A DNA stretch of 64,000 nucleotides from Thuidium tamariscinum. Lineage: Eukaryota > Streptophyta > Bryopsida > Hypnales > Thuidiaceae. How positions within the stretch are numbered: position 1 is the first letter of the stretch; every line of letters starts with the position of its first letter. The notes beneath the pieces are model-generated. The model was given only the letters and a program-made list of their open reading frames with translations. It searched no databases and was not told the DNA's origin. A program made the position numbers and the translations under genes. The stretch lies in the NCBI GenBank assembly GCA_947034885.2, contig OX344751.2:37973082-38037081 (forward strand), given 5' to 3'. Below, one piece after another: positions 12,740 to 38,440 of this stretch.

Positions 12740-12986
12740 TGATACAGGGTTTTTCATGATCAAGCCCATGAGGACTCATCAGGAACCAATAGTGTAGAGA
12801 GAAGTTAGGTCTGATCAGGGTAGACTGTGATCAATTCGTCCAAATGTGAAAAGTAACTGCCAGTTGGGCATAACCACCATAACGGTGATTCCTGATAGAG
12901 AAAAGAGAGGAGAGCAGGCAAAAGAGGCCAGATGTAAGTTCACCAGATTCATGAATAAAAGCAAGGGAATTTAAATGCATGATTCA
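12740..12986 (+). repeat. 5' LTR
   Basis: A 247-bp direct repeat, from TGATACAGGG to CATGATTCA. It is identical to the 3' LTR except for five single-base differences, all transitions. Confidence 0.95.
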
Positions 12987-12989
12987 TCT

Positions 12990-13006
12990 TGGTTCCGTTG
13001 CCGGGA
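12990..13006 (+). other. Primer binding site
   Basis: TGGTTCCGTTGCCGGGA begins three bases after the 5' LTR. It starts with TGG and closely resembles the tRNA-Asp-type site (TGGCGCCGTTGCCGGG) used by Tat/Athila gypsy elements, differing in the fourth and fifth bases. Confidence 0.75.
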
Positions 13007-13687
13007 CGCGAGAATTTGTTACAGGGTGAGAGCCGGGAGAGTGATAGAACGAAGCGCAGAATCAAGGAGGATTTGGAAGATGTGCCTCGCCCATTCACGA
13101 GCGAGTTCGGAGATAACTTCGGAGATAACCCAATCGTTCAGAAATCTACCATCAGAGTCAGCGTTATTTCAAGGATCACATAGAGCGGTGCCGGTACACA
13201 ATTTAAAGTTAAAAACGAGTAATTACGGAATTCAAAACGCCCCAGCTGCATATTTCAGTAAGCTCCTTCTTCAAGGAGCGTGTAAGCAGGGAAACATCGT
13301 CCATTATCGAACTTCCCTGGCTGGTTGAACGCGCAACCGGGAAGGGACGACGAAGTCCACTGAGAGTCGAACACAGGACCTTCCACGAAGCCCACGCCGC
13401 TGAGAGTCAAGTATCCGCATCATCTGAGCCAGTGCACTGAAACTTGATCATGGGGGACAGTATTCGATCGATCAAGCCAGAGATTCCAGCGTCTGGGTGC
13501 GGGGAGCTGATGTCGACGATGAGATCCAAGCAAGAGATGCTGGGGAGCTGATACGTGGGCTGTGAGGTCCCATCGACATCAGGAGGGTGTCGATTCAGTT
13601 CACGCTACCGGGGTGAAGAATATAATTTCTTGGTCGCCAGTTATCAGCTACTCATTGACAGTTTAAATTCACCAGACTTCACGTCGA

Positions 13688-14077
13688 ATGAAGCCTTGGA
13701 AACTCAATTTTGACGAGTCTTGCTCGAAGCGGTTAGGTTCGGGTGCTGGGGTGGTTTTAGAGAATCCTACAGGGGAGAAAGAAATCTTCCATCGTGATCT
13801 CGACTAAAGCTTAACCTACAATCAGTTTGAATATGCAGCTTTGATAGCCGCGTTGAACATTGCTAAAGGGAAGAATGTACACCATGTGCAGATCAGAGGT
13901 GATTCGAAACTGGTTTGTAATCAGGTGGCTGGAAACTGGGAGGTAAAGTCGGAGAACTTACAACCTTATTATGAGACCGTGAAGGGGTTAACCCAAGAAT
14001 TCAAATCCGTGGAAATTATCCACGTGCCCAGGGAACAAAATCACGAAGCCGACGCGGCAGCTAAAAGGCTGTCGTAG
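13688..14077 (+). pseudogene. Extra RNase H (RVT_3/archaeal-type) domain upstream of gag
   Basis: A 129-codon frame from ATG at 13688 to TAG at 14077, interrupted by one in-frame TAA at 13805-13807. The parts around the stop resemble the additional RNase H domain of plant Tat-type gypsy elements: KPWKLNFDES, GSGAGVVLENP, FEYAALIAALNIA, GDSKLVCNQVAGNWE and REQNHEADAAA. All four expected acidic catalytic residues are visible (D in NFDES, E in FEYAAL, D in GDSKL, D in HEADAAA). In described Tat elements this domain sits in pol, after RT-RNase H; here it precedes gag, in a different frame from gag-pol. It could be an internal rearrangement or a captured domain. Confidence 0.7.
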
Positions 14078-14114
14078 AAAATAATTTTGGTGAAAGTGTC
14101 AACGATCAAGTATC

Positions 14115-17100
14115 ATGGTAGCTATACTGGGTTTTTCAGGAAAGGAAAAAGAAGACCCTGAACGGTTTATCAAACAATACAAACGAGCATGCATGGCAAA
14201 CGGGGATCGAACAGAGGTTGTCTGGTTGGAATTGTTGCCGATCCATCTGGATGACACAGCAGCGTTTTGGTACGACAGGCAAGTGCCCGGAACGCGGGCC
14301 ACTTGGTAAGCCTTGATTGAAGCCTTAATGTCCGAGTTTCAAGAACGAGAAAGCTATCAAAGTTTGTTGGGTACATTAAGCTCAATTAAACAAAAACCTG
14401 AGGAAACGATGCGACAATTCAGTGAAAGAGTGAGGGAGTTGCAAGCTCGTATCCAGAGAAGTGTGAGTAGTCCGGTTTCCATGAATGGAGGTCATGGTGC
14501 GACAAACGTCGAGAATACCGTAGCCAACTTAAGTAGTATCAACGCACTGGTACTGCGAAGTTTCGTGGACGGTTTGAAACCAGTAATCCAAGAGATCATG
14601 GCTTGGAAGGATCCGGCAACGTTCGAGGTAGCCCTTACTTTAGCACAACATAAAGAATTAACCATAACTAATATGGTGCAGAGCTCGTCATTGGTGGTAA
14701 CAGGAACAACTTTCGTGCCAAAAGTAGGCGAAGCTACTCTTGGTCCAACAGAAAGTAAGTGCATGCAAGGCGGAACGGATTCTGAGTTATCGCAATTGGT
14801 GGCTGAGATGCGTGACCTGAAATTATTCCTGTTGCAAGGACAAACGAGCAGCCGCGCCAAGAGTCCGCAGTCAGAATTTAGAGGACCCTCGTCACGTGCT
14901 GTCCAGTTTGTTACGTGTCATGGGTGTGGATTAAAAGGACATTATAAAAGCGACTGTCCGAACCAGGAAAAGATCGCGACGCCAAGCACTGCTAAATTAG
15001 CAGAACTACATTTGGTGCAAATTGCAGGCGGTTCGAGGGAGAACCCTGAGGTAATGATGGCAAAGCGCAGTAGACCGACGAGAGAGGCAGTCCCCACATT
15101 GACATCACCGATTGAGCTTCACCGAGATAAACGTGTTCGTTCGGACAATAAGGTTCGTAAACCGCGTCGACGCATTGGGATCGACGATTTGTTAGTGGGC
15201 TGCGGCCAGACTGAATATTCTATATTAGGCAATTTCGGCAACCAAGCTGCGAACATAACTATGGGGCAATTAATTGCAAAATCTCCTGCTTTGAGGAGAG
15301 AGTTATGACAAGGGATAAGTGCACGACAACGACGATCCTCGGCGGAGATTTATGTCGCAGATAAAGCTCATGGAGATCTCAAGGCGCCGCAAGTCGAAGC
15401 CACGATACACGGTCATACCGTCGAAGGATGTTTGATCGACGGCGAAGCAGCCGTGAACATCATGCCTAGTTGGTTCATGGAGGAAGTAGGACTAAAACCG
15501 ACCAAGTCCTTGTCAATGCGATTGAAAGTAGCCGATCAAAGATGCATAAAGTTCCTCGGCCAGATCAGTCAAATCCCTGTTGCTGTAAATGGCGTTACGG
15601 TAAAAGTTGATTTCCATGTATTAAATATATCGGTGAATAATGGCGGTTATCCTATGATTTTGGGGCGACCTTGGTTACGACAAGTAAAAGCCGTTAACTA
15701 TTGGGAAAAGGGAAAGATGAAAATAGGATCTTCTCTGAATCGCGTGAGCATTCAAGTGGTGCCAGAGCCTGGGAGTGACTCATCGAGTAATTCGGCGACC
15801 GAAGACTCATCTGGTGAATCTTCGTGGGATTCGGATCCTGCATCAGATTCTGATGCGGAGTCTGAGGACACGGAGGTGGAGCTCTACGCCATCAACGTAT
15901 TACTGCAAGTCATTACCGATTCGATGAATCATTTGGAAGATCAAGATGTGGGCCCTTGTGCGAGGAGCGAGCTGTTGTCACTGCTTCAATTCGAACCCAC
16001 CCTAACTCCCATCGAGCGCGAGGAATTAGAAAAAGTGGTCATTGAGTACGCAGACCTCTTTGTTACAAAACATGTGGATCTACCAGTTATTACCTTGGAG
16101 GAGCATCGAATTGAGTTGCTGCCCGGAACGAAACCCGTCAGAGCTAAGCAACGGAGGATGGCCCCAGAAAAGATGACGATTTTACGAGCTGAATTAGATC
16201 GTCTCTTGGAGGGAGGATTCATTACCGAAGTACGGAACACGGAGTAGGTGTCTCCTGTTGTTATTGTCCCCCCAAAAGGAGGGAAATGGAGAGTCTGCGT
16301 AAACTACAGAGCATTGAACCAATTCACGAGGAAAAATCGACAGCCATTACCTCATATTGATGAGTTATTAGATGAGGTAGTAGGGCACGAACGTTACTCT
16401 TTTTGCGACGGATACTCAGGATATCACCAAATTCGGATTCACCCAGATAGCATCTTGTTTACGACATTTACCACGCCTTGGGGCACGTTTGCATGGTTGC
16501 GCATGCCTTTTGGATTGTGCAATGCAGGTGGGACCTTCCAGCGAGTGCAACTCAAGATTTTTGCACCCTATATTGGTTGGTTTATTAGAGTTTATTTAGA
16601 TGATTTCGCAGTATACGGTGATAAAGTGGTACACGTAGAGCAAGTGCGTGCCGCTTTTCAGCGATTACGGGAGCATGGTTGCTCTTTAAGTCCCTCAAAG
16701 TGCAAATTTGGGTTTGAGGAAGGGCCACTGTTAGGAAACGTGGTGTTCAAGGGAGGATTAAAGGTTGATCTAGAAAAGGTGCAACGCATATTGGAGATGA
16801 AGGCTCCTACTTCACGAGAACAGGTATCAAAGCTGTGGGGTACGACGATTTATCATAATCGTTTTATTCCAAACCTTGCAGGCATTGGCCGACCCATAAG
16901 TTCCTTAATAGCGAAATCCAAGCCCTTTGAATGGAGTAAGGAGTGTGTTCAAGCTTTTGAATATGTGAAATCATGCCTGGCAAGTAGCCCAGTGGTCCGA
17001 AACCCAGATTAGAAACTTCAATTAATATTAAATCCTTCGGCGTCTGAATTTGCAGTTGCGGCAATCTTGATACAAAATGACGAAACAAGTCGAGTACATC

Positions 17101-18269
17101 CTATATATTATGCCAGTAGACTCCTATCTGTTTGCGAGGTGAAATATTCTCCCTTAGAGAAATTGGGAGTGTCTCTCTTGTTTACTTGCTCGAAGTTCAA
17201 GCATTATGTATTGGCCAGTTCCTTTCCGACGTTGTTCGCGGACTGTGCGTAGTTTTGCAAAACGTGTCAACAGTGTCAAGCATATGCGAAGCAAATAAAA
17301 CCATTCACCGAATTACACCCGATTTATCCTACCGGAATTTTCGAGAAGTGGGGCGTGGACTTCGTCGGGCCTCTTCCTATGACTGCAAAACGGAACGAAT
17401 ATCTGATAGTAGCCACGGACTACTTAACCAAATGGGCGGAAGCTTTACCCGTGCGAAGTTGCAATAAGAAGGTCGCTGCCGAATTCATCTTTAATCAAAT
17501 TGTGTGTCGCTATGGATGCCCCTTGGAAATCGTCACAGATCAAGGAACTCATTTTATTAACGAAGTTGTTGCAAGCCTTATGAAAAAATTGTCAGTAAAA
17601 CATAGAAGAGCAAGCCCGTACTATCCGCAAGCAAACGGATTGGTAGAAAAGACCAATGGGATATTGATCGGCATCATCAGCAAGGTCGTTCTAGAAAAAC
17701 GTCGCGAGTGGGATCAGCATGTTTACGAGGCTCTGTGGGCTTATCGGACAGCTCACAAGACCGCCACCGGGTATACTCCATTTCATTTGGCTTTTGGTAT
17801 TGAAGCAACCATCCCTATCGAATTGGAGCTCAAGTCTTTGCGTATAGCAATGCGACATGGATTAGGCGATACAGATTCATTAGCTGAACGAGTGCATCTG
17901 CTGGAAAAGTTAGACGAAGATCGGCGTTGGACATTGCAAAATTACGAGGCTCTCCAGCGGAAAAGAAAGATACGACACGATGCTCGTGGAAAAGTTACCA
18001 CATTCGATCCAGGTGAATTAGTCATGATGATAGATCACTAGTTAATTAAACAGTACGGACAAAAATTCAAGCCTAAGTGGTTAGGACCGTACGTTATTCA
18101 CCGCCGGTTTGATAATGGGACTTATAGCCTAAGCACACCCGAGGGCACCATTTTAAAGAAAACTTATAATGGAGTGAAGCTTAAGAGATACTATCATAAA
18201 ACAGGTCAGAACCTGCACGCTCCTGAAGTTCCAGGTCCTGGGGAGGAGATGATACAGGGTTTTTCATGA
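14115..18269 (+). pseudogene. gag-pol polyprotein, one frame with nonsense codons
   Basis: A single continuous frame, without frameshifts, from ATG at 14115 to a TGA at 18267 inside the 3' LTR. Domains: gag (14115-about 14880); CCHC zinc knuckle CHGCGLKGHYKSDC at 14916-14957; aspartic protease around 15340-15720 with LIDGEAAVNIM at the active site (D at 15438) and ILGRPWL; reverse transcriptase about 16040-16800 with YLDD at 16593-16604; RNase H start near 17030-17250; integrase from the CC half of its zinc finger (CKTCQQC) through GVDFVGP, TDQGTHF and NGLVEKTN (catalytic D, D, E); GPY module about 18060-18200. In-frame stops lie at 14307, 15306, 16245, 17010, 17250 and 18039. The RNase H end and the HH half of the integrase zinc finger are missing, an internal deletion near 17250. 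Confidence 0.9.
18239..18249 (+). other. Polypurine tract
   Basis: TGGGGAGGAGA lies directly before the 3' LTR, the expected plus-strand primer. Confidence 0.75.
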
Positions 18270-18496
18270 TCAAGCCCATGAGGACTCATCAGGAACCGAT
18301 AGCGTAGAGAGAAGTTAGGTCTGATCAGGGTAGACTGTGATCAATTCGTCTAAATGTGAAAAGTAACTGCTAGTTGGGCATAACCACCATAACGGTGATT
18401 CCTGATAGAGAAAAGAGAGGAGAGCAGGCAAAAGAGGCCAGATGTAAATTCACCAGATTCATGAATAAAAGCAAGGGAATTTAAATGCATGATTCA
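18250..18496 (+). repeat. 3' LTR
   Basis: 247 bp, TG...CA. It holds an AATAAA at 18464-18469 that could serve as the element's poly(A) signal; the same sequence is in the 5' LTR. Compared with the 5' LTR the changes are A to G, T to C, C to T, C to T and G to A. Confidence 0.95.
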
Positions 18497-19116: not shown

Positions 19117-20132
19117 TTAACCTCTAAATGTCCAAGGCACCTATTTTAGTGTTTGCAAAACTCTGAAATTAAATAAAACCTTATCAAGTTTCTATTTTTA
19201 GTAGTTTCTATTTTAGAAAACTTTTTTTGGAAGTCTAGTTTAAAAATTAAGAAAATTGATCTTGAAAATGATTGATTATGATTTTTCTATTCAAGATTTT
19301 GTGCAAGGGTATCCATTGCAATCTTGGCTTTCTCTAGTATTGAGGGCTATTAGAAATGAGCCTCAAATACACTAGATCTTAGAGAAAAACACACATTAGA
19401 ATTTCATTTTAAAAAATTGTTGCGGAAATTTTGAGAAGTCATCTATTGATCGGGGTTAAACATGTTAGGCCACCTTTAACCTCATATTTTTCTGGTGACC
19501 AACTTTTTAGATATAACATGTGAAAAGAGGATTGAAAGACTTCAATTCACTTTTGTAGTTTTAACATCCTCATAATCAAACATTATCATAAGGGGAGATT
19601 TGAAGGCAAGGGAGGGCCATTTGAGGGCCATTCCCATACGTGTTCCTTATGTTGTTCTGAAATTATAAATCACCCCACAATGATTGAATTTTTGAAATTT
19701 TGAAAAAACTCCAAAAATTCCAAGAAGTGTTAAAAAACCTAAAACTCATTAATTTCTTTTTCAAATTAAAAAACTAATAATTGTTTTAAAATTATTTTTA
19801 AAAATATTATTTTTTGACATGGCAATCTCTAAATCCACGTCAGATTGCTAATGTGGCACACTCCCATAATTTGCGAACTAAAGATAACTTTTGGTCTTCT
19901 AATGCCCTTAAATCTCTCCAAGTGAATCTTTCAATCTATATGTATTTATATTGTTGTGTTTTCTTTTTTTAAGTAATCTTTAACATGATGTCTAGTTTGA
20001 ATTTGTAAAGCTATATTTCAAGAAAATTTAATAAAGCTTAAACAGGTAAATGAGTGTGAATATGTTTGTTTTTTTTCAATTTAGAGCAAATTCCTAGAAG
20101 CTCAAAAAAGACCTTAAGCATTTAGGAGTTAA
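19117..20132. mobile_element. TTAA-flanked element, family D copy 2 (nested)
   Basis: It is bounded by TTAA at 19117-19120 and 20129-20132. The inverted ends are TTAACCTCTAAATGTCC and CATTTAGGAGTTAA. The interior matches 56131-56783, with blocks such as GAGCCTCAAATACACTAGAT. It sits inside family A copy 3 at a spot where family A copy 1 has a single TTAA. It is longer than copy 1 of its family because of a third insertion at 19592-19920. Confidence 0.75.
19592..19920. mobile_element. Family E element, innermost of the nest
   Basis: About 330 bp absent from the homologous element at 56131-56783. The imperfect inverted ends are GGGGAGATTTGAAGGCAA and TGCCCTTAAATCTCTCC. It contains a paired GACATGGCAATCTC / GATTGCTAATGTGGC segment. 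A related copy lies at 26397-26730. Confidence 0.5.
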
Positions 20133-20868
20133 GGCCCAACAATTTTCATAGCTTTTGATTACATAGTTCAAAAGTTATTGCATGATATGTAGTTTTCATT
20201 GCTTAGCAAGCAACTCAGGCAACTTAAAAATCATTTTTTTCAGAATTAAAAATTTGAAATTGGTTTTCAAGATTTATAAATATGTGAAAAGATTTGAATC
20301 ATTCTATTTTGATCAATGAATTAAAAGTGATAAGGAATTTTAGTAGGTAGTTATAGAATCTCTTTTCTAAAATAAACTTTGGAGTCCTTTATTTAATTCA
20401 ATTTTCAACATTAATTTTTTTGAAAAAAGGACATTAGGTGAAGATTGTTTATTAGAACATTGCAATGATTGGAATTGGAATTTTTGAATTCCATAAACAA
20501 ATTCTGAAGAATTTAGTATTTTAAATCATCATGTATTTCTTTTTACTTATTGTTTTTTCTTATACGTTGTACAATTCCAAATGATTTGTACATTTTTTCA
20601 TATTATTGTGATCATGTGAAGTAAAATTGCTTGTTTTTCCACATGGTTAAATAATAAATTTTTATCAATCTGAATGCTTATATCCTGCAATCTACATAGT
20701 GAAAAATTTTGAATTTTCTTTTACATCTTTTCAACCCAATTTACTACAAGATCCTTTGGTTACATGTGGTTAAACAAGTTCCTTTTTAGAAAAACATGGT
20801 TTTGTACTAGAAATAGTTGTTTTAGAGCATTTTTGGTGAAAATATAGTCAAATGCATTTAGGGGTTAT

Positions 20869-21250
20869 TAAAGATAAGATATTGAAATGATCTCCATCCA
20901 AGTGAAAAATGTTAGTTGTTGAATTTCCAATCCAACAGTATATATCTTGTCATATTTGAATGAATTCTTCATATTCTAAGAGTGAAATACGTAGCCATAT
21001 ATGTTTACAGTCCCCACCAAACTGCCTTCAAGCAAGTGTCGAAACCCCATTTCAAGACTTTGGACCTTTCATTAAAGAAAGTTTGGACGCTCTAGAGAGC
21101 CATTTCTCTTCTAGTCAAATGTGCAAATACAAAAAGAGATTTTTTTCAGAAGAAGAATATTATAAATATAAATATCCAAAATCATGTACCATGTGATTGC
21201 CTCAGGTGCCATGTCAGACTACGGTTTTTTTTGTTTTTTTTTTAATTTCA
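20869..21250. repeat. AT-rich diverged repeat
   Basis: It shares blocks with about 10740-11230 in the same order (AAATACAAAAAGAG and then AATCATGTACCATGTGATTGCCTCAG). No gene seen. Confidence 0.4.
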
Positions 21251-21858
21251 ATTTTTTTTTTATGTATATTTTCCTGTATTTGCGCATCTGGCCAGAGAGA
21301 AACTGCCTACTGTAGGTAACTAAAGAGGATCTAGACTCCAGATGCGGAGCTAACAGGGCCCTTCCTTCGTGTAACAGGTGACTTCTACTAACTGTGCCGC
21401 CTCGTAGGCATCACAATGTTTCTCTGCCTTTCTCGGGAAGCCCAGATCGATCTACTTTTGTTTAGGCGCCTGCAGTTCAGTGGGACACGAATCCCATCAG
21501 TCGGATTTTCCTCCTTGCAAGCGCGAGCAAGGCCGGCGTGACTCCACGGAAGGGAAGGATCCCATGCCACCGTAATTCATTCCTTGGTAGGGTCCATAGC
21601 CAGGTTCACATGTCTGCGGGCGATCGAGTCTGCTGCCGATTGCAAGCCAGGTAAGCCAGGCAACGAGAAGATGGCCGGAGAAAGGAATATATCCTAGCTC
21701 CTCAGATTAGGTTCTCACATTCCCTCTCTCGCGCACACATTCAACCCATGAAGGCCATGATAAATATGCACCTAGCTAGCTAGCTTGACAGTACCCTAAA
21801 TATCAGCCTTCCCTTTTAATATTCCAATCAACTCCGCTAGAGTGGCACTAGATTGCTC
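21251..21858. other. Upstream region of the hairpin locus
   Basis: The composition shifts sharply from AT-rich repeat DNA to balanced DNA, marking a gene island. No coding frame is recognisable. This stretch probably holds the promoter of the locus starting near 21890. Confidence 0.4.
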
Positions 21859-21865
21859 TATAAAT
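21859..21865 (+). promoter_or_regulatory. TATA box (TATAAAT) of the hairpin locus
   Basis: A consensus TATA box in the sequence CTCTATAAATC, about 290 bp upstream of the first hairpin, at the edge of the balanced-composition island. It would place transcription start near 21890 for a Pol II transcript covering all five hairpins. Confidence 0.5.
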
Positions 21866-22151
21866 CTTTGCGTTTCGCAGGGAGTCTCATCGTCCCTGAA
21901 TTCCAGCTTGGATTTGGATCTAGAGAGCTCAATATGTCATCTATGTCCGTGTCAGTCGACTCTCGAAGCTCAGTTGTGCTGACTGACTGCTGAGGTTATT
22001 TGATCGTAGATAGAGTTTGAATTGGGTACGTACATTGTCTGTGTTGACGCACAGTTTCTTGAAGTGTGCAAATGTTGCGTTTCGCTAGGTAATGCCTGCC
22101 ATGTGTTGCAAGCAAAGTAATGGTCCGAACGGACGAGGCTGACACGTGAAG

Positions 22152-22278
22152 TATCAGTGAAAATCATAATGTTACTGATGTGGGAAACAATGCTCTCCTT
22201 CTTTCGTTACCGAGAACGTCAGCTAGGGTAGAGAGTTTTCGTTCCCCACTTCAGTAGCATGATGATTTTCTGGAGATA
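22152..22278 (+). ncRNA. Candidate miRNA-type precursor hairpin 1 of 5
   Basis: A 127-nt imperfect stem. The 5' arm (22152-22186) contains TAATGTTACTGATGTGGGAA. The 3' arm (22242-22278) starts TTCCCCACTTCAGTAGCATG and ends TCTGGAGATA. The blocks GAAAATCAT, ATG and TACTGA pair, with one A/G mismatch and one U-G wobble between them, plus a mismatch where this copy has CACTTC instead of CACATC. Pairing extends weakly into the loop (CTCTC with GAGAG). Hairpins 1 and 2 share this variant. Confidence 0.6.
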
Positions 22279-22370
22279 TTATTGTAATCCTCTGCTCGCT
22301 CATAAAAATGAGTTTCAGAAAGAGTTCAGCTCGAGTACGTGGCCAAGGCTGATTCAACTAGAAATGCATA

Positions 22371-22496
22371 TATCAGTGAAAATCATAATGTTACTGATGT
22401 GGGAAACAATGCTCTAGCTCTTTCGTTACCGAGAATGCTACCTGAGGAGAGAGTTTTCGTTCCCCACTTCAGTAGCATGATGATTTTCTGGAGATA
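22371..22496 (+). ncRNA. Candidate miRNA-type precursor hairpin 2 of 5
   Basis: A 126-nt stem whose two arms are identical to those of hairpin 1, with a slightly different loop. It begins 219 bp after hairpin 1. Confidence 0.6.
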
Positions 22497-22574
22497 TTAT
22501 TGTAATACTCTAGAGACTCTGTTCAATCATCAAAATGTGTTGCAGATCGATAGTGCCAACTGGTGTAGCGTATC

Positions 22575-22697
22575 ATGTCAGTGAAAACCATAATGTTACT
22601 GATGTGGGAAACGCAAAATGCTCATCTTGCAAGAGTGTTCACTGTGCAGGGCGTTGTAGTTCTCCACATCAGTAGCATGATGATTTTCTAGAGATGT
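22575..22697 (+). ncRNA. Candidate miRNA-type precursor hairpin 3 of 5
   Basis: About 123 nt. The 5' arm has GTCAGTGAAAACCATAATG and then TTACTGATGTGGGAA. The 3' arm starts TTCTCCACATCAGTAGCATG and ends TCTAGAGATG. Here TACTGATGTGG pairs completely with CCACATCAGTA. The loop is quite unlike those of hairpins 1 and 2. Confidence 0.6.
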
Positions 22698-22765
22698 ATA
22701 ATCTTCTGGTCGATTATCAAAATGCGTTGCAGACACAGCTCAGAAAGGTCAACCCGTGAACCCCA

Positions 22766-22882
22766 TATCAGTGAAAACCATAATGTTACTGATGTGGGAA
22801 ACAATACTGATTTGCAAGAGAATGTTCTCTGTGCATAAGTTCTAGTTCTCCACATCAGTAGCATGATGATTTTCTGGAGATA
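22766..22882 (+). ncRNA. Candidate miRNA-type precursor hairpin 4 of 5
   Basis: 117 nt. Its 3' arm carries TTCTCCACATCAGTAGCATG. Thirteen consecutive pairs form between GTTACTGATGTGG and CCACATCAGTAGC, one of them a U-G wobble. The stem base is closed by ATATC with GATAT. Confidence 0.6.
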
Positions 22883-22954
22883 TTATAAACCTCCCATCAC
22901 GAATCAAAATGTGTTGCAGACACGGCTCAGAAAGGTTGACTACCTCGTGAAGCA

Positions 22955-23056
22955 TATCAGTGAAAACCATAATGTTACTGATGTGGGAAACAATGATCTC
23001 CACGCTTTGAGAATTCCAGTTCTCCACATCAGTTGCATGATGATTTTCTGGAGATA
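22955..23056 (+). ncRNA. Candidate miRNA-type precursor hairpin 5 of 5
   Basis: The shortest copy, 102 nt with a loop of about 30 nt. The 5' arm is identical to that of hairpin 4; the 3' arm has TTGCATGA in place of TAGCATGA. The spacers between hairpins 2-5 also retain blocks (ATCAAAATGYGTTGCAGA), so the array grew by tandem duplication of a unit of about 190-220 bp. Confidence 0.6.
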
Positions 23057-23256
23057 TTATAAACCTCTTGCTCAACAAGATACATTCCAGCTGCTGCCGT
23101 TGGATCGTGTTGAAATGGTAACATGTTTTCGAAACACCAATTCCTTTCAAATTGTTTGATTTCTCTGCAATCGCCTCTTAGATATATGTATGACCAATTC
23201 CTTTCAAAATTGAGCGTCATTGCTTTTCTTTCAAAGGTGAACCAGCGAAATTAATG

Positions 23257-23262
23257 AATAAA
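23257..23262 (+). terminator. Poly(A) signal AATAAA after the hairpin array
   Basis: A canonical AATAAA in ATGAATAAATCG, about 200 nt after the last hairpin. With the TATA box at 21859 it would frame a primary transcript of about 1.4 kb. Confidence 0.4.
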
Positions 23263-23296
23263 TCGAAATTTGGATCCCAAGTTGTGCACAGTTGAA

Positions 23297-23548
23297 ATGC
23301 AGGTGGTTAGGAGTCGAACTATACCGATTTCACTCTCGGATTATACAGTAGAGGTAGCTGTACCCAATGTTCGGTTGCACGATAAGAGTTCTCTTAATTT
23401 TTCTTTTGTAGAGGCGGGTTCCAGTGAAAGAATAGAAACCTCAGAGCAAAACCTCAGACTGTTATCCCATGCAGTGGAAGAGCTGGAAAATCTTTCCCAT
23501 TATGTGAGATATAATTTAACGTTCACTTCTTCTCAATCAAAAGACTGA
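23297..23548 (+). CDS. Small unrecognised ORF after the hairpin array
   Basis: An open frame of 83 residues from the first ATG (MQVVRSRTIPISL) to a TGA at 23548. The second half (SEQNLRLLSHAVEELENLSH) has a heptad-like leucine pattern that could form a short coiled coil. No domain is recognised. It could be a short protein, a 3' exon of a longer transcript that includes the hairpins, or a chance frame. Confidence 0.2.
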   Translation: MQVVRSRTIPISLSDYTVEVAVPNVRLHDKSSLNFSFVEAGSSERIETSEQNLRLLSHAVEELENLSHYVRYNLTFTSSQSKD

Positions 23549-24527
23549 ACTGCACACGTTTGTTCCACATAATTATGATTCTTTTAGATCGACTTTAAAG
23601 CTTCTGATCGACAATTTACATCAAAATCCCACCTTCTGCTCCTTGCTGCTTGCAGAGGTGATCCATTATACCACGATCGAGTCACAAATAGCATAGGAAG
23701 GTTCATTCTAGAAGCAAATGATAAATAATAACTAGCAAATCAGCTATTGACACATTAAACAATGATGATATCAGAAGGCTTATAACGTCCATATTCTCAT
23801 GACAACGAGAATTGACGCAAAAAACGTAAGCATGAGAGTATTGGCATCTTTCAGAGCACCAATAATGGGACAGTCAAGTGCACAAAGCTCTAGCTTTAAT
23901 TGTACGTGTGTACATCTGAGATTCCAGATAGGGTTTAAGGAAGTACAAATTTTCTGAAATTTCGCCATTTTATCGAATATGGGGAGTACGTCTTTCACGT
24001 CACTCCAACAGTAGACACAGCATCAAGACATCACAGCAGCTTACTTTAGTCCTGGAAGAGACCTCTGAACCCATAGCCAACCGACAGTGTTACGAAAACC
24101 TCTAGCAAGCAGTGTCGTAAATAATAGAATATGAGGCCCTTGATTGCAAAGAAGATATTGCAACTGACGGAGGATCTGATGGCGATTGATTCTTCGATGA
24201 CATCTCTGTTTGGATTCAATTGCAAATCAGCAAATCTGAGTGACACTGCTGATGGGTCAAATCCACTGTTTAGGCCCAAATTTCAGTTCGCCCAAATGTC
24301 ACTGCAAGTCTGAACTTTCAAGTGCTCGGTGGGTTTTGTAATTTCCATCAATGAAACCCTAATCCTCTGTCGGGTCCTGCCGGGTGGCCTGAATACTATG
24401 ATTCTTCCTAATCGACAATGCTGAACGATTTGACTTCAATCTCATTTTTCTTCTTTTTTAAAAAATGAGACGGAATTTCATTGCAAAAGGGAGAGAAACA
24501 AAACCGCCAGTCACAAGTGCTCTACTC
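23549..24527. other. Intergenic, balanced composition
   Basis: It holds overlapping short frames on both strands (24131-24313 plus, 24046-24279 minus) without recognisable domains. No repeat copy was found. It may be the flank of the hairpin locus or an unrecognised exon. Confidence 0.4.
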
Positions 24528-24892
24528 CGCCAAGTTTTTTTTATTGGTTCTGTCCTTTTGGACACAATCCATGGCATCGACTATGGTGGGTTTTGGATCT
24601 CTATTTCCAAATCTTATCTATAACCTTATTCACACTGCAACATAATGACATACACAAACATTTGTTTTGGGGATCTGGGTAGACCTCTTTTTGGTCAAGG
24701 GGAGGGCTACCTAGAACCTAGGCAGTCCACTGGCTAACCAAGGAGGGTGACTTCATTAAATTCACTATTTATTTCATTTTAATAATTTTGTTTAATTTCC
24801 GTTATGTATAGTATTTTAATATTTTTCTAGCAATAAAACTAATGTTATTGTTCACCTAAGATAGAGCCTTATGGTCACACCATTCTTGTTAG
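24528..24892 (+). repeat. Dispersed repeat R, copy 2
   Basis: It matches R copy 1 from TTATTGGTTCTGTCCTTTTG through TCACACCATTCTTGTT. It is uninterrupted where copy 1 carries its insertion of about 600 bp, so it shows the older state. The far left and far right parts of the repeat are missing. Confidence 0.65.
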
Positions 24893-25179
24893 AGCATAAA
24901 ATTGAAACATGGTGTATAGACTCTAAAAGCTAGAGTTGGCATATGTCTATTTTTAGAAGTTTCTAAAAATGCATCTAAAAAAAGTTCTAATATTTGAAAA
25001 TTATGTCAACATTGCCAAAATGACCACTAATGGTAGTCAAAAATTACTTGAAAAAGTCAAAGGAGAGGTGGATCGTCTTATTAATTGCATATCTTTTCAT
25101 TCAAAATTTAAAGTGTATAGCAAACAAATTTCTTGTAGTGGAAAAAGTCATGTATATATTTAGTGTAAATAAGACAGTT

Positions 25180-26400
25180 AATCTTTAGGAGGTTAGGATG
25201 AGGAATATCTATGAAGCCTAACAATTTTTGTAACTTTTGATAACACAATTAATCCATTAAGGACCGATTGACCACTTTTTGGTTGATATTGACACTTTTT
25301 ATTGGTAGCCAAAGTTTTAGAATGAATTTGGATATAGACCAAAGGGGACAGGTGTAGAGAATTGGGAATTGAATGCATTGGGACAAGAATTACAACAATC
25401 TTTGCTAGTATGTGGTTTAGGGGTTGAAAAAACTAACAAAATATGGGCTAAAAATACAAAAAAATTCTAATAGGAGAACCTTCAATTGCCAAAAAAGTTA
25501 TTCAAAAGACCCAAATATTCATGCCAATTTCATTAGTATAGTTAGATCTTTGGAATGCATCATGATTTGGTATATTTTTCTATATTTAGCTTGAGGCTAG
25601 AAAATGTTTTGTCCGCCCCCAAAATCAACCATGGTCCTTATAGGTTAAAAAGATATTGCATAATATATTTATATGGTGTTTGTTTTTTTATCTATGCAAA
25701 GTGTTTGAGTTGGAAAAGAAACATTACTTTTTAAAAGAAGTAGAAATTTGACATTTGTTTTATGGATCTATATACATATGAAAAACTTTGATAAATGAAT
25801 CAAAAGTTATGAAGAATTTTAGTTTGCGGGTAGTTATGGATTCACTATTTTAAAATAAACTTTGAAGTCCTTTATTTTATTCAATTTTCAATATTTTTGA
25901 AATTTTTTTTTTTGTTGTAGATTGTTTATTTCAACATTGGAACCATTGGAATTGGCAATTTTCAATTTCATATATAACTTCTTAACAATTTAGTATTTTG
26001 AATCACTCTTTACTTCTTTCTATTTACTATTTTTTTCCTATATTTTATGCAAATCCAAATGATATGGAAATTTTCAAGCAAATAGCTTACTTGCCTTAAA
26101 GAATGAATCTAAAAAGTACTACCATTTTGAACATTTTTTCATACAAATGTAAGCTTGTGTAGTAGAGCTACCTGAATCTTTGTGGCCAAAAAAAGGATTT
26201 TGGTCAATTCAAACACTAATATGTTGTAATCCACATAGTACAAATTTCTGAAATTCTTTTTGCATCTTCTCAAACCAACACACTAGAAGATCCTATGGTT
26301 ACATGTGCCTAAAAATAATTTTTTCCAAAAATTTGGTACATGTGTTAAAATGGTAGTGTTGGAGCATTTTTGGTAAAAACATAGTCAAGAAATATTAGGG
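25180..26400. mobile_element. Family A copy 4, truncated and nested
   Basis: The interior matches family A copy 1 (AACAATTTTTGTAACTTTTG at 25219, TTTATTTCAACATTGGAACC near 25925, and a closing GGTAAAAACATAGTCAAG near 26370). It is split by the TTAA element at 25249-25648. The right end runs into a family E element at about 26397. The left end is unclear. Confidence 0.55.
25249..25648. mobile_element. TTAA-flanked element, family F
   Basis: 400 bp bounded by TTAA on both sides. The inverted ends are TTAATCCATTAAGGACC and GGTCCTTATAGGTTAA. It is inserted in family A copy 4, where copy 1 has an uninterrupted sequence with ATAA at the matching place. Non-coding. Confidence 0.65.
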
Positions 26401-29327: not shown

Positions 29328-29738
29328 TCACGTCATCGAGAACGTATGCCGATTCTCCAGCGCCACTAGGGTTGTCTCTTCAGGGACAGGAGCGTAGCCT
29401 CCAGCTAATTGGCGTTGATGAAGATACGGCGCCTGGTTCGTGAAGCGAATCGAAGGGAGGCAGTCTAGATAGTTCGGTTGATAATTCAATTGACTGGACC
29501 AGCCCGTCGAGATATCGGGCAACCCGGCCAGGAGAAGCCGAGGAGGTAAATTCCTCGAAATCGAATCAATGTTGAAGGAGCTTATTCCTTCTTCGGGATG
29601 CGTTAGGGAGCGAGACAATTTTGGAGCAATACCAGGGAGCTTCAAATTGGCAGGAGGGTGCATGAAATTGGAGAAGGAGTGATTAAAGGGGGAAGAGAAA
29701 CCATTTTCCTTGTATGAGAAAGGCAACTCCGTCTTCAC
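29328..29738 (-). pseudogene. Stranded C-terminal part of the VQ gene after an in-frame TAG
   Basis: 136 codons in the same frame as exon 2, directly after the TAG at 29739-29741. It still resembles the C-terminal half of the paralogue at 62412-62938: VKTELPF against VKMEPVN, a LLAGLPDIS segment against LFAGLPELS, a YLDCL segment against FLDCL, and the end TTLVALENRHTFSMT against GTMVALENIQAFMLT. Preservation of the extreme C-terminus means the stop is recent, or is removed by splicing, or sits between two separately used parts. The preceding bases TTTCCTCCTAG|GTGAAG look like a 3' splice site. A phase-0 donor GTGAAG at 29867 would give a 129-nt intron removing 43 codons, including a conserved segment. 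Confidence 0.6.
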
Positions 29739-30693
29739 CTAGGAGGAAAGCATGGTGCCTATGGCGGGGGAAGGACCGTCGAAATGGGAGAACATCAACA
29801 AGTTGTTGTTGTTGTCGAATTCAAATTCGGAGTCGAAGGGACTCCAGGGGGAGTTCAATTGCTTCACCACAGTCGCTAATTCACCACAGCGGTTGCGAGT
29901 AGTGGGACCAAACACCACGAACGTGGCTGAATCCTCCGAGCTCATGGGGGAGCCCCAATTTGACATTGCAGACGAGGACACTGAACCTGAAAAATGCATA
30001 GGAATTGAAATCAAACTCGTCGTCAATAATCGTTGAAACTTGAACCTCACAAAATTCTAAACTGCGACCTACGGGATCAAAATTGTGATCTTCCAGTTCC
30101 AAACTGCGACCTAGTAGCTTGCGGTTCAAAACAAAGCCTTCCGTGAGTCAAAACTGGAATTTTCCGTACGTATGATCTCGAAATGAGTAGCAAGGTTCGA
30201 GACAATTCATCAAGAGATATGGGAAAGAATTGAATTAGCGCTCATTACCTTGTCGTTGAATGGAGGCGCCCTCGACAGTGTGCTGAATTGGCTCCGTAGT
30301 AGCGGATTCAGGATTCGACGCTCTCCTGGACCCACTCGCCTCCCTCGCCTTTTCAACTTTCTTCTTGGGCGCCGGCTTCATCTTCTTCAGCCGCAACCTC
30401 GTGTCATTGGATCCCGTAAGCTTCTGCACTAGCAACATGAAGTCGTCCGGCTCCGTGTGCATCACTTTGGGCGAGTACGTGTGGATGATGACCGGCGGTC
30501 GGTACTGCACTTGTGGCAATGGCAACGGCGACTTCCAAATGTGCTGAGAGTCTTTCCTCACTTTTAACGGGGAGTTCCGATTCTCCTGCTTCCGAATTCC
30601 AAAGGTAAGTCCTCCTGCAAGCAGGTCCTTCCCGTCCATGGCACTAAAATCTTGTGCCCTTGTACTACTGATGACAGGCGTATAGGGACTCAT
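29739..30693 (-). CDS. MKS1-like VQ-motif protein, truncated by a nonsense codon
   Basis: Exon 1 is 30693-30249 and exon 2 is 29986-29739 (TAG). The intron of 262 nt has donor CAAG|GTAATG and acceptor TTTTTCAG|GTTCAG; the phase-1 junction restores GSV, exactly as in the paralogue. The predicted product is 230 residues. Residues 41-58 (SPLKVRKDSQHIWKSPLP) resemble the conserved N-terminal MAP-kinase docking region of MKS1-type VQ proteins. Residues 85-94 (FMLLVQKLTG) are the VQ motif, followed by a basic nuclear-localisation-like run (RLRLKKMKPAPKKK). VQ proteins are nuclear cofactors of WRKY factors, and MKS1 is an MPK4 substrate in Arabidopsis; the role here is inferred. The start is the first ATG and matches the paralogue (CAGGATGAGTCC). 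The conserved C-terminus lies beyond the TAG. It may be a pseudogene, a truncated form or an alternatively spliced gene. Confidence 0.75.
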
Positions 30694-32642
30694 CCTGATC
30701 GATCTCAATGCCAGACGATCCTAAGCCTTGGAATTCTTAAACCTTCCGTCACCGTAGCAACACACCTCCTATTGCAAACACAGGTTTATCACCATTATCC
30801 CTCGGTGGCTGCGCCAACCAGCAAAGGCAACTGCACGGTGGACACTGGAGATGACGACAGGGAGAGCGAAAGATGAGGAAACCAGGGCAGGGCCGTGCTT
30901 AACAAGGATGAGCCTGGAGGGGTTTAATGGAACCTGTAGACAAGATGCTTGGGAAACCATTGCATCTTTTGCAGGGAATCTGATCTTAAGGCGCTCGGTG
31001 TGGGTGGAGTGGGGGGCCATTTGGACATGCTATCGCTTTGCTCGCTGGGCCAGTGACTGTAGCTGTAATTTCCTGCTACTGTATATGAATGAATGAATAA
31101 TATGCAATAAGTCCAGTTGTATTCAGTTTTATTTTTCAGTTGAAAGGACTGACTGTCGTCAGTTGCATCTGGAGCAAGAACAAGAGTCGTTTTTATGTCA
31201 TGGTAAGAGTAGTTGCGTTCACCTCGGTGTACTCTCCTTTCAATTCAGTGTTGTGAGGTCTTGATTCATTGCAATTCAGGGCAGTCCTGGAAAAGGGATC
31301 GGGGCTTAGGCATCAAAGGCATTCAAAGGATAAGTTTAGAAACTTGAGCATGCGGCTAGGGTGGGCATTTGATGTGATAAGGCATTTTGGCTTACTGATG
31401 TGATAAGGCATTTTGGCTTACAATGGTGGGGTCAAGAAAAAACGATTGTTTTTGCAGTTCCTACACGAAGAAGCAAAGATCTTACACCATGAGTTGCGCA
31501 CTTACGGCACTCTTCAAGTTACAGTACAGTTTTCTTTGTTGCATGGAATGTGATGTATTCTAAGTTTGGGAAACTTCACTGCGAGCCGATCTTTTGCTTG
31601 GTAAGTCGAATGGAAAATACATTATCGTGATTTTCAAGGCTCTTTTCGGTATGATTACATATTGCTATGCAGATAGAACACTATATAGGGAGCATACTAC
31701 ACAAGACTCATTTGTACATACATTCACAAGCAAGTCAAGTGAATTGGCCACCATCCTTGCCATTCATTTCTACATCCTCATGAAGCCTCCATTATGCATT
31801 TATGCATAGCATGGCTATGAAGTGTGAAAATATTTGTTGACTTTGATAGCTTAGAAAGTAACTTTCTTGATGTAAGGCAACCTAATTGTCAAGGCAACCT
31901 CATTTCACTATTTCGTGTAAGGCAATGGTCTAATTGGGGTACCTCCAAAAGCTACTTTAGCTATAAAATGGACTAGTTGAGCAACTTTTAATAAGTCCCT
32001 CTTCAAAACAAAATAACAAATGAAGTAACCAAATGTGGTTGTCTTTCTTACATATACTAATAGGGTACTTAAGAAAAAAAATTCACCAAATTGAAGCCTT
32101 TAAACAATTCTTAAATGAATTTCTTGCTCAAAAAACAAAATTTGTCCCAAAGTTACAAAAACATTATAGAAATTTATTTAAAATATCAAATGACATCAAT
32201 TTTGTACCATTTTCACGTGAATTCCATTTATATGTACACTACTTAGAATAATTAGTTTATAGGAATAAAAATTCTATTCATTTAGTGATGCAATGCTTGC
32301 AAATGTTGATTTTAGGCAACTTTTTTGACAAGGCATAAAAATATGATAAATATTCATTCAAATAAAAAATTGCATAGATTGAAACATTTCATTATACCTA
32401 GTTGCACATTTTTTGATTATTCATTTATTTTATAAAAACATTAAATTGAAGGAAATGAAAAAATTGGTCAAAAATTAGAAAAATCGAGATATATTTATAA
32501 TTTTCAATTTTTTGCTTAGCATCAAAGATAGAATTCACCATCTAAATCGATGAATTTTAGATAGTCCACACTAGTCTTTCAAACTAGAGGTTCCCTTCTT
32601 CTTTTAGAAACATGTATTTCTTACTCTCATAAGTGCTTGAAT
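30694..32642. other. Upstream region of the minus-strand VQ gene, then AT-rich DNA
   Basis: The first kilobase has balanced composition and probably contains the promoter and leader of the VQ gene. The sequence immediately upstream of the ATG ends ATCAG|G, so a 5' UTR intron is possible, as in the paralogue. From about 31600 the DNA is AT-rich. No other gene recognised. Confidence 0.4.
31370..31421. repeat. Perfect 26-bp tandem duplication
   Basis: The unit TGATGTGATAAGGCATTTTG plus GCTTAC occurs twice without mismatch (31370-31395 and 31396-31421), a recent local duplication upstream of the VQ gene. Confidence 0.95.
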
Positions 32643-33755: not shown

Positions 33756-36460
33756 CTAATGTAGAATCTTGAACGAACAAACTCTTCATAAAGACCCCAA
33801 AGTTTAAGATTTTTCTCCCTTCTCTATATCCAAGGTAGTTGCATGCTAGTTTCAAGTTGATGGCGTCCCTGACATCTAATATCCATCCCATGTCCTCCTA
33901 TTCTTGTTTACACCCTCCCTTGGTCTATCTTGTACAAACATTGATTCTAATTTTTTAATCATAGTATTGATATGCATCATCTATTTACTATTTCTTGATG
34001 ATCATGTGATAGATATACTTTGTCATAGATTCATACTATCATCTAACAAGTCCATCACATATAAGGCACCATAGTAATAGAGATAGTCACACCTCCTTCA
34101 ATATGCAAAATTCTATGAAGCTAGAGAAATTGGTGAGAGAATAAAGAAGCCAATGGCAAGTTGCTTTGCATGAAAGAGGTGTGACACCCCTTTTCATTAT
34201 TTGGAGTGCTCACTTCTCAAGGAATGTGTTACCTGCAAAATTGGATGTAAATTCCACAAGTTATGCACACATAGCCAACAAAATTGAAAATTTTCTTGTG
34301 AAATTTTTCCTTGAGAATGTTTCTTCATCTCCAAAGAAAAAGAAACAATACTCTCAATTTTAAAAAAATACAAGCTCCACCTACTACAAATTGCCAACAA
34401 AAAAACGCCATGTGCACATTCTCTACAAATTGCAACTGTGTATTGAAGAAGGTGTGAGTACCCTCATAATTCAAGGATTGACTAATGATGACCTTGCGAC
34501 AAGCCAAGAACCTACTCACTTAGTCCAAGTTGGTGAGAAGTTGTAGAAGACACTCCAAGGTGGAGGGCCTCTTGGCTTGCTTTTTTTGGATGCATCTTCT
34601 TCTTCTCCAATAGCATCCCTTTGACTTTGCGGGCAAGCATAATAACTTAAAGTAAACCTACCATTGATTGGATGGTTCCAAATACTAGATGGTACAATTG
34701 CTAATAAAAGATCAAACATGCACTCTTGAACTTTGCAAGTGCAACAATAGGAAGAAAAAATTTGACCACCACACAATCACTGCACAATGTGCAATGAAAG
34801 GTAGTAGTGTTTTTTTTATGAAAATTTCAAGTATGTTACATTCAAGTTCCAACAAAATTGACAAAAAGAAACCTTTTTGCAAATCCTTTTTGGAAGTGAA
34901 TCTTAACACGACATTGAGTAATTGTGTCAAGTTTGAGAGCTTGCAAGTTCCTGTTGGGTTGTGGAAAAAGATTTGAATTTTCATTGTGTAGTGATTGACA
35001 AGGTTCCTCTACATGCTGGCATCTCCCATCTATCCAATCTCACAAAAACAGATTTCACCATTAGAAGAGGAGATTATTGATTAACCGTTGAAGAACACAT
35101 AGGTGGCCGTGGAAATCATGCATTTTGATACCGTGTGACATCATCTACTTTGAAAAAGCCAAAAATACTCATTGGAAGTGTCCTAACCTTTCCTTTCCAC
35201 CCCTAATACGAAGGATGAAAAGTTGCAATTCTGTCCTACAAGAAAGACTCTTTGTCATTCAAAGGACATCAAACATCCACAGCGGCCTTCAAGAGTTAAC
35301 TTCATCAGTTAGGCATTGCATTGGAGTCCCAATGATCAATGGAATTGATAGGCCACCTGAGTTTCGGAAATGATTTTGTCACTGATTGGATTTGAGAAAA
35401 CTGAAGGCCGTGGTATCAGTTCAGTGGAGAAAGTGAGAAACTCTACTCTCCTCTACAACACAACAGTGTCTCCATGTGCTGCAATAGGGTGTCTGTAAGT
35501 AGGGGATTGGATGTTGACTTCACTTGGAGGGAGATTTGCAAAAATATCAGGATTAGTAACGTAGGTTTAGCTTGGGCTCCGGTTGGGGTGAACCTATTAT
35601 TAGGAGAAGCAGGCCCAGCAACATTTACAGCTGTGTTCCGGAAACTTTTTGAATTTTACCGGCTAATTTCCTTCAATTCCCAAATTGAAAAATGGAACCA
35701 GTTTTCCAAGCACGGTGTCCGGTTATTCTCTCTACTTTTTATTCAAGATAGAAATTCTATAGATTTTTCCACTCGTTTTTGCCAATGTTTTCAAATTGCA
35801 ACCAATTTTTTTTTCCAAGTCCTCCAGCTAACTTTGAACTAGCTGCCGGGTTTTTCCAATCATTGTATGAGACTAGAGTACCATAGACTAAAACCTACAT
35901 GGATCTGTACCCTATGCAACTACTACAATCCAAATAAAAGTAAAAGTAATTTTTTAATTTTTCATTCATTAGAACTTCCAAATAATTTTCACACCATAGG
36001 TCCAAATTCAATGAAACAAAGCCCGTTCGCAAAGGGCCTTTCAATGGTATCAAGAACATGATTTAGAAATGATTGGTCCTGTAGACCTCAACGTGAGAAA
36101 CAAAACAAATAAAATATACAAACAACCTCACTTAAGGTATGGATTATTATAGTGGCTACACACATTTGAGTTTTAACAAAAATAAATCTAAAAAAATAAG
36201 TTAATTAGTGTAATATAGTCATATTTTGGTTTGTACTAATTCAAATATATTGGACATAGAATGGCTTTATTATAATTTTATCTCGTGCATTAATAGAAGA
36301 AATAGATGGGAAGGGAAAGCAACCTATGGCAAAGAAAATGACTAGTTTGCCTTGTTGGCATTGTTGAAAGATTCCAATACTCTTAAATGACTAGAATTCT
36401 ATTACAACCTTGGTTGATTCTTTTTTGTATTTTTTTATCAATGCAAACCTCCCTTTCATT
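33756..36460. other. Intergenic, no gene recognised
   Basis: Several short frames on both strands without domains. Composition is moderately AT-rich, with a more balanced patch near 35400-35650. No RNA gene or clear repeat seen. Confidence 0.4.
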
Positions 36461-38440
36461 GTACAGTGGGGTACCAATCAAAATGTCGTTTTCGAATTCG
36501 CAGTGAGAAAAATTTCAGTACTGCCAACTTTGAAAGCCTCTCGAGAGCTCAAAAATTGGTATTTTACCACTAAAATTTTAATACAGCATCATCTTTAAGT
36601 TAATTATACGTATGACAAATTTCAAGTCCAAAAGATTCATCAAAAAAAAGTTATTCAAAATCTACCAACATGGGTAGTGGTGAGAAACATTTCACTACTT
36701 TCAACTTTGACACCTTCCTAAGGATTGAGTTTTTTATTTTTTGCCATGAAATTTTTTTCATGAAACAATATCTATGTTTTTAATATGCATAAAAAATTTC
36801 AAGTTAAAAAAAGTTTTTTTTAAGAAGATATTTGAAATCTCCCAACTGTAGTTAAAAAAATGTAGTTTTGAGAAAAATTTCACAATTGCCAACTTTGACA
36901 CCCTGCCAAGGACTGGAAAATTGGTTTCTTACCATGAATATTTTTGCGTGAAGTCATATATATATTGATAATATGCTCTCCAAATTTCAAGTTCAAATGA
37001 ATTACCAAAAAAGAAATATACAAAATCTCCCAACATGTGTAGTTGTGAGAAAATTTTCACAATTGCCAACTTTGACACCTTTCCAAGGGCTGAAAATTTG
37101 GCTATTTAACATGAATTTTTTTGAATAAGATCAACTTTATGTTGATAATATATGTTCCTAATTTCAAGTTCAAAACACTTACCCAAAAAAAGATATTCAA
37201 AATCTCTCAACATGTGTAGTTGTAAGGTTGAGTTTTTACATTTGTGTCAAACTTTGCTCCACAAATTAACACTATACTAAGGGCTGAAAAACTCTTCCTC
37301 ACAACTACACATGTTGGGAGATTTTGTATGTCTTTTTTTTGATAATTTATTTGAACTTGAAATTTGGAGCACATACTATCAACATAGAGATGACTTCACA
37401 CAAAAATTTCATGGTAAAAAACCAATTTTTCAGCCCTTGGGAGGGTGTCAAAGTTGGCAATTGTGAAATTTTCTTCAAAACTACACTTGTTGGGAGATTT
37501 CATATATCTTCTTAAAAAAACTTTTTTTAACTTGAAATGTTTTATGCATATTAAAAACATAGATATTGTTTCATGACAAAAATTTCATGGCAAATTAAAA
37601 AAAAAACTCAATCCTTAGGAAGGTGTCAAAGTTGAAAGTAGTGAAATGTTTCTCACCACTACCCATGTTGGTAGATTTTGGATAACTTTTTTATGGTGAA
37701 TCTTTTGGACTTGAAATTTGATATACGTATAATTAACTTAAAGATGATGCTATATTAAAATTTTCGTGGTAAAATACCAACTTTTCAGCTCTCGGAAGGC
37801 TCTCAAAGTTGGCAGTACTAAAAATTTTCTCACTCCAAATTCGAAAACACCATTTTGATTGGTACTCCACTGTACAATGGGGTCCCAATCAAAATGGCGT
37901 TTTCGAAATCACGGTGAAAGAAATTTTAGTGCAGCCAACTTTGAGAGCCTCTTGAGAACTGAAAAGTTGGTATTTTACCACGAAATTTTTATCATAGCAT
38001 CATCTTTATGTTAATAACACATGTGCCAAATTTCAAGGCCAAAAGATTCACCATAAAAAAGTTATTCAAAATCTATCAACATGGGTAGTGGTGAGAAACA
38101 TTTCACTACTTTCAACTTTGACACCTTCCTAAGGATTGAGTTTTTTTTCTTTGGCCATGAAATTTTTGTCATGAAACAATCTCTACGTTTTTAATATGTA
38201 TAAAAAATTTAAAGGTAAATTTTTTTTTTAAAGATATTTGAAATCTCCCAACAGGTGCAGTTTTGAGAAAATTTACACAATTGCCAACTTTGATACCCTC
38301 CCAAGGGCTGAAAATTTGGTTTCTTACCATGAATTTTTTTTTGTGAAGTCATCTCTATATTGATAATATATTTTCTAAATTTTAAGTCCAAATGAATTAC
38401 CGAAATATACAAAATCTCTCAACATGTGTAGTTGTGAGTT
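36461..38440. repeat. Forward-reverse-forward array of about 180-bp units
   Basis: Forward arm 1 (36461-37222) has four tandem units. The shared CAACTTTG starts at 36525, 36702, 36890 and 37067, giving spacings of 177, 188 and 177 bp, and a decayed fifth follows at 37247. The reverse arm (about 37262-37870) holds their inverse complement. Forward arm 2 (37876-38440) repeats units 1 to 3. Each unit carries a stretch like AAATCTCCCAACATGTGTAG followed by TTGTGAGAAAATTTCAC. The arms join head to head at 37870 around a palindromic CCACTGTACAATGGGG. Non-coding. Confidence 0.85.

Follow-up and report, generated by a model that had tools for sequence, protein, structure and literature searches.

Five Tandem Hairpins With an Invariant 5′ Arm: A Probable Polycistronic MicroRNA Cluster and an Unlinked Sixth Hairpin

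Introduction

What would five tandem inverted-repeat units, placed close together on one strand, encode: a processed small-RNA precursor, a mobile or decaying repeat, an undiced structured RNA, or a repeated peptide? The preliminary description of this locus had proposed a processed small-RNA precursor because of its conserved arms and free loops. Both features are supported by the present analysis, and the precursor reading is stronger now, because a sixth, unlinked hairpin has been found. We consider a polycistronic MIRNA cluster to be the best reading of the locus and a very probable one. Throughout the text, the window is the whole stretch of DNA analyzed (64,000 nt, C3:37973082–38037081), and the genome searched comprises 363,211,507 bases in 19 contigs.

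Results and Discussion

Organization of the Array

The array and the features discussed together with it are as follows.

22152..23057, plus strand: five tandem hairpins (units 1–5), proposed polycistronic miRNA precursor
22152..22279, plus strand: hairpin 1, 128 nt; 5′ core 22166–22188, predicted guide 21-mer 22167–22187, 3′ arm 22242–22265
22371..22497, plus strand: hairpin 2, 127 nt; 5′ core 22385–22407, predicted guide 22386–22406, 3′ arm 22460–22483
22576..22697, plus strand: hairpin 3, 122 nt; 5′ core 22590–22612, predicted guide 22591–22611, 3′ arm 22660–22683
22766..22883, plus strand: hairpin 4, 118 nt; 5′ core 22780–22802, predicted guide 22781–22801, 3′ arm 22846–22869
22955..23057, plus strand: hairpin 5, 103 nt, the weakest fold; 5′ core 22969–22991, predicted guide 22970–22990, 3′ arm 23020–23043
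21859..21865, plus strand: TATAAAT, a weak possible TATA box that may occur by chance, 293 bases upstream of hairpin 1
23257..23262, plus strand: AATAAA, a weak possible poly(A) signal that may occur by chance, 200 bases downstream of hairpin 5
21251..24750, no strand: G+C-richer island holding the array, with 14/14 quarter-kb windows at 0.36–0.55

The five hairpins occupy 906 bases, with unit starts 189–219 nt apart, and thus form a cluster in the sense of same-family hairpins located near each other. The unit starts given previously hold for four units (22152, 22371, 22766, and 22955), while unit 3 aligns from 22576 and not from 22575. The 20-mer TAATGTTACTGATGTGGGAA from the 5′ arm has five copies in the window, all with 0 mismatches (at 22167, 22386, 22591, 22781, and 22970), compared to a mean of 0.02 matches at ≤3 mismatches and a maximum of one in 100 shuffles. 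The full 23-nt 5′ core is ATAATGTTACTGATGTGGGAAAC.

The island that holds the array has AT-rich flanks, at 0.22–0.34 in the five windows before and the five windows after it (region 20000–26000 examined). A TATA box and an AATAAA had been described as framing the array, and both words are indeed present at these places, but they carry little weight: the plus strand of the window has 112 occurrences of TATAWAW and 83 of AATAAA, or one in every 571 and 771 bases, respectively, so that such words are common enough to be met by chance and constitute weak evidence. We have dropped them as support for a transcription unit.

Folding of the Units

Folded one by one, as had been suggested, the units yield five hairpins, a single one each, with minimum free energies of –49.1, –48.5, –47.5, –45.4, and –32.3 kcal/mol for units 1–5 and plus-strand z-scores of –6.06, –6.79, –5.47, –6.66, and –3.78, respectively. 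Each of them lies beyond all its 200 shuffles (0/200 folding as well for each of the five units).

Distribution of Conservation Within the Array

In the alignment of the five units, invariant columns number 67 of 74 in the arms, compared to 92 of 249 overall (hypergeometric p ~3e-31); if only ungapped columns are considered, the respective fractions are 67/73 and 92/153 (p ~2e-15), both p-values assuming independence of columns. The near-invariant arms and variable loops reported in the preliminary description are thereby confirmed, with the 5′ arm identical in 5/5 units. Units 1 and 2 are the closest pair, with 42/52 identical loop positions. In units 4 and 5 the loops are unrelated (9/47), whereas the arms are identical at 35/35 and 38/39 positions. 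Loops that have diverged while the arms are kept make the array unlike a simple decaying tandem repeat.

The 3′ core is also conserved within the array, with 21/25 columns invariant across the five units, and its differences define two 3′-arm variants, one in units 1–2 and the other in units 3–5, with one extra change in unit 5.

A Sixth Hairpin on Contig C7

The exact 20-nt 5′ arm has six copies in the whole genome, five of them in the array and one at C7:11408763–11408782 on the minus strand. The latter has a 3′ partner 48 nt on and folds as a hairpin of its own.

C7:11408676–11408798 (L036:2677–2799), minus strand: unlinked sixth hairpin, with an identical 23-nt 5′ core and a folding energy of –41.7 kcal/mol

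Comparison of the array units with this hairpin demonstrates a steep gradient. The 5′ core is identical at 23/23 positions in 5/5 comparisons, the 3′ core at 20–21/25 (i.e., four to five changes), and the two sides of the lower stem at 9–10/14 and 11/15, while the loops are unrelated (4/48 to 18/48). Across the six hairpins, invariant columns make up 23/23 of the 5′ core, 18/25 of the 3′ core, and 1/55 of the loop, so that the mature sequence is more conserved than the remainder of the precursor, a supporting though not a defining property of miRNAs. A BLAST comparison (E below 1) of the 2.2-kb array region with the 6-kb C7 region retrieves only the hairpin and a fringe of at most ~21 nt. The identity of the 5′ core at two loci, while the loop and the surroundings are unrelated, points to constraint on the 5′ arm itself, which is the mark of a miRNA guide.

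Dozens of genomic copies had been named as a sign of a transposable repeat. A genome DNA search with unit 1 gives five matches, all of them the array units, and a search with the C7 hairpin retrieves itself and three array matches; together with the six exact copies of the 5′ 20-mer, this yields six hairpins at two loci, counts that are possible lower bounds and speak against a mobile repeat.

At both loci, some hairpins are preceded by a word similar to ATGTGTTGCA(G) (22104, 22538, and 22912 in the window; near 2886 in L036, minus strand). This word might represent a 3′ splice site or a remnant of the ancestral unit, and we have given it no evidential weight.

Consensus Structure and Strand

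RNAalifold applied to the five units and the C7 hairpin predicts 31 consensus pairs, with 98.4% of the 185 cells of the six-hairpin stem paired (3/185 unpaired). Covariation is weak: a single pair of the 31 is changed on both sides (C–G to U–A in the C7 hairpin), and 94/500 shuffles match this, hence we rejected covariation as proof of the structure.

The reverse strand folds well too (z-scores of –6.27, –6.42, –4.81, –7.75, and –4.78 for units 1–5), because an inverted repeat must do so. The fold energy is better on the plus strand in units 1–4 and on the minus strand in unit 5 (–35.7 vs. –32.3 kcal/mol). G–U pairs are found in six stem column pairs and A–C, equivalent to G–U on the opposite strand, in two, the pairs having been chosen on the plus strand; a bias of six column pairs versus two was rejected as proof of the strand. 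A covariance model scores all six hairpins higher on their own strand (110.6–135.6 vs. 48.0–61.6 bits), partly by construction, as it was built from the same six hairpins. Taken together, the energies, G–U pairs and model scores favor the plus strand as the probable transcribed one, without proving it.

Predicted Duplex and Guide

All six hairpins, being 103–128 nt long, are within the limit of 300 nt and lack secondary stems in the duplex, as restated in PMC11293646. This source allows for at most six mismatched positions in the duplex, at most three of them in asymmetric bulges. With A's substituted for the loop, the duplex of the 21-mer has two to three unpaired positions per side and spans 21 and 21 nt in 6/6 hairpins; equal spans on both arms imply no net asymmetric bulge, and hence all six duplexes, with loops so replaced, are within these limits. 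In free folds the 21-mer has two to four unpaired positions.

The 5′ arm stays unchanged while its 3′ partner drifts and yet mostly pairs, which suggests that the 5′ arm is the working sequence. Three 21-mers fit inside the 23-nt core, and only one of them starts with T, TAATGTTACTGATGTGGGAAA. Plant AGO1 prefers a 5′ U. The register of TAATGTTACTGATGTGGGAAA is therefore predicted from this preference and from its being the sole T-starting candidate. Two related products had been considered possible from the 3′-arm variants; the variants are real, but the 3′ arm is probably the passenger, and the 5′ arm would give one product.

We infer a mechanism in which transcription, its strand, the dicing register, the guide arm, and the repression of mRNAs are all deduced from the features above. 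One Pol II transcript of the plus strand would carry the five hairpins of 103–128 nt, and Dicer-like 1 would cut each of them into a duplex of ~21 bp. The guide loaded into AGO1 would be the invariant 5′ arm, with the predicted 21-mer UAAUGUUACUGAUGUGGGAAA, and the passenger would be the 3′ arm, drifting while most of the pairing is kept. The five copies would multiply the output of a single guide, the single-hairpin gene on C7 would make the same guide, and this guide would repress mRNAs. The genome has three Dicer_dimer matches over the cut-off.

Search for Candidate Targets

Scanning of the whole genome with the 5′ 20-mer at ≤3 mismatches gives 85 rows, compared to 49 for a reversed control with the control's repeats left in. 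By hand count, the 85 rows comprise 57 places of one high-copy repeat, 11 hairpin arms, four copies of a repeat on contig C6, and 13 single sites, 17 rows being left after removal of the high-copy repeat and the family's own arms. A wobble-tolerant 21-mer with one mismatch gives 226 rows and its control, 203. Hence no clear excess of complementary sites over reversed controls is seen in the whole genome for either the 20-mer or the wobble-tolerant 21-mer.

The high-copy repeat (57 places, e.g., L013 near 1501) contains ATGGTATTGATGTGGGTAAC, which differs from the 5′ arm at three positions; its flanks are similar in the ten copies read, and its target score is 6. The resemblance to the 5′ arm is probably a coincidence.

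All 13 single sites and one of the four C6 repeat copies were scored with the usual penalties in six registers of the 5′ arm, and 8/14 sites score ≤4.5 in some register. No convincing sense exon was seen at these eight sites, for which we considered the frames around six and the longest overlapping frame for two, the frames being mostly judged without database comparison. The best of the following, at C2:18941835 (3.0 in one register), is flanked by two exon-like frames that belong to a gene on the opposite strand, which we take to be MED20-like. The site at C3:22056119 (3.5) is antisense to frames that are presumably LepA-like, and the one at C10:2181475 (3.5) lies within no clear gene. The site at C4:560138 (L046:4639–4658), scoring 4.0, shares its strand with a NAC-domain frame that starts ~3.85 kb downstream of it, and is a weak lead to a possible target.

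Alternative Explanations

The closest alternative retains a miRNA cluster but makes the 3′ arm (TTCTCCACATCAGTAGCATGA and its TTCCCCACTTCAG variant) the main guide, or has both arms active, which would yield two related products. The 3′ arm begins with U, and the invariance of 21/25 of its core columns in the array shows that it is conserved there, too. A search with the 3′-arm pattern retrieves five array rows and one site outside the family, C3:3267461, with three mismatches, compared to none in the control. However, this only outside site lies in no clear gene, among short frames of 60–133 aa judged without database comparison, and it is the 3′ core that has changed at 4–5 of 25 positions relative to C7, against 0/23 in the 5′ core. 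We consider a 3′-arm guide unlikely, and the assignment of the guide to the invariant 5′ arm preferable.

Both remaining explanations dispense with a miRNA, and we regard each as very improbable. Tandem units with inverted arms could belong to a MITE-like, hairpin-forming mobile element or a decaying tandem repeat, whose inverted repeats would produce heterogeneous siRNAs, and further inverted repeats are indeed present in the window (e.g., 37599–38148 and 47704–47918). Yet only two loci, possibly a lower bound, were found in 363 Mb, the similarity between them ends at about the limits of the hairpin, and the conservation is concentrated in the arms, the 5′ arm above all, rather than spread over the whole unit; on the number of loci and the confinement of homology we rejected the mobile repeat. 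A conserved hairpin would also be compatible with an undiced structured non-coding or protein-binding RNA, but letter-perfect 5′ arms combined with drifting 3′ arms are not predicted for such an RNA. As to a gene for a short repeated peptide, frames of 106 aa (plus strand) and 111 aa (minus strand) cover part of the array, and some units contain a repeated peptide similar to ISENHNVTDVGN. Among the frames listed, however, the repeated peptide is not kept in one frame across units 2, 3, and 5, and in unit 3 it stops before the second half, hence a coding repeat was rejected; moreover, the 5′ core is invariant at all positions, with no codon pattern. The miRNA cluster with a 5′-arm guide thus remains the reading that we prefer.

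Other Features of the Window

Two VQ-motif frames, 30235–30708 (minus strand) and 60846–61472 (plus strand), are in opposite orientation ~30 kb apart and share a 126-nt inverted match at 81%. The frames beside them, 29328–29738 (minus strand) and 62315–62938 (plus strand), resemble each other on visual comparison, and neither matches Pfam. The VQ-motif frames, the NAC-domain frame and the Dicer_dimer matches fit a land plant, and the appearance of the VQ proteins, along with the number and size of the contigs, suggests that it is probably a moss.

An LTR retrotransposon is located at 12740–18496, with reverse transcriptase and integrase frames and 247-nt terminal repeats that are 98% identical, and is probably a recent insertion. 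The region 36457–38416 is a nest of ~180-nt units in both orientations, including a spacer-free palindrome at 37599–38148 with 275-nt arms at 89%; this nest could be a source of long-hairpin siRNAs. A lone inverted repeat at 47704–47918, with 87-nt arms that are 90% complementary and a 41-nt loop, is possibly a young hairpin or a MITE.

Comparison With Known Families and Clusters

Scanning of the whole window with Rfam 15 at the gathering thresholds gives no matches, and an E-value scan of 21850–23300 gives eight, with the best E of 0.67 and all well under the gathering scores. Fragments of the arms have no match in the open-access literature (5.39 million papers), a search outside which miRBase and supplementary tables lie; three short fragments have no match in the main text and Table 1 of PMC1838911, and no sequence match is present in the portions of text considered from PMC4957126, PMC3565333, and PMC5569507.

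We regard as evenly balanced the more specific proposal of an undescribed moss-lineage miRNA family, with a 21-nt guide that is letter-perfect in two unlinked genes whose surroundings have diverged, one of these genes having expanded to five hairpins on one transcript, which would raise the guide dose. Under this proposal, the strong constraint on the guide would imply an important target. If it is true, a miRNA family would be added beyond the few well-studied plants, the array would provide a clean example from nature of how one guide is amplified in copy number inside a transcript, and the unlinked single-copy paralogue on C7 would serve for comparison. The guide is sharply defined as a single 21-mer, directly testable in small-RNA libraries.

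Homologous clusters listed in PMC2812943 include rice MIR395m-s,x and MIR166k-h, as well as MIR156 and MIR169, usually with two to three copies and a maximum of eight. The array resembles these clusters, as described there, in having several hairpins in tandem that belong to one family and share their mature sequence, probably derived by successive duplication of an ancestral hairpin; unlike them, its hairpins have no Rfam family and are known here from sequence alone. Similarly, the poplar MIR482–MIR1448 polycistron consists of highly homologous hairpins, and the single transcript proposed for the array is known for poplar, but the poplar polycistron is a pair rather than five hairpins, and no Rfam match links the two systems (PMC3475693).

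According to the 2022 review PMC9291395, only one moss has a characterized miRNA repertoire; 25% of the miRNAs of Physcomitrium patens are polycistronic (after Axtell, 2007), and Marchantia has one polycistronic locus. The array is like the polycistronic MIRNAs of Physcomitrium patens in probably coming from the same plant group, in which, as the review indicates for Physcomitrium patens, clusters are common, while its arm fragments are unmatched in the open literature, a comparison made without miRBase entries. As both same-family clusters and moss polycistronic clusters have been described (PMC2812943, PMC9291395), the architecture of the array is already known. Judged by Rfam and the open literature, with miRBase outside the search, the array would most likely represent a new family within this known architecture.
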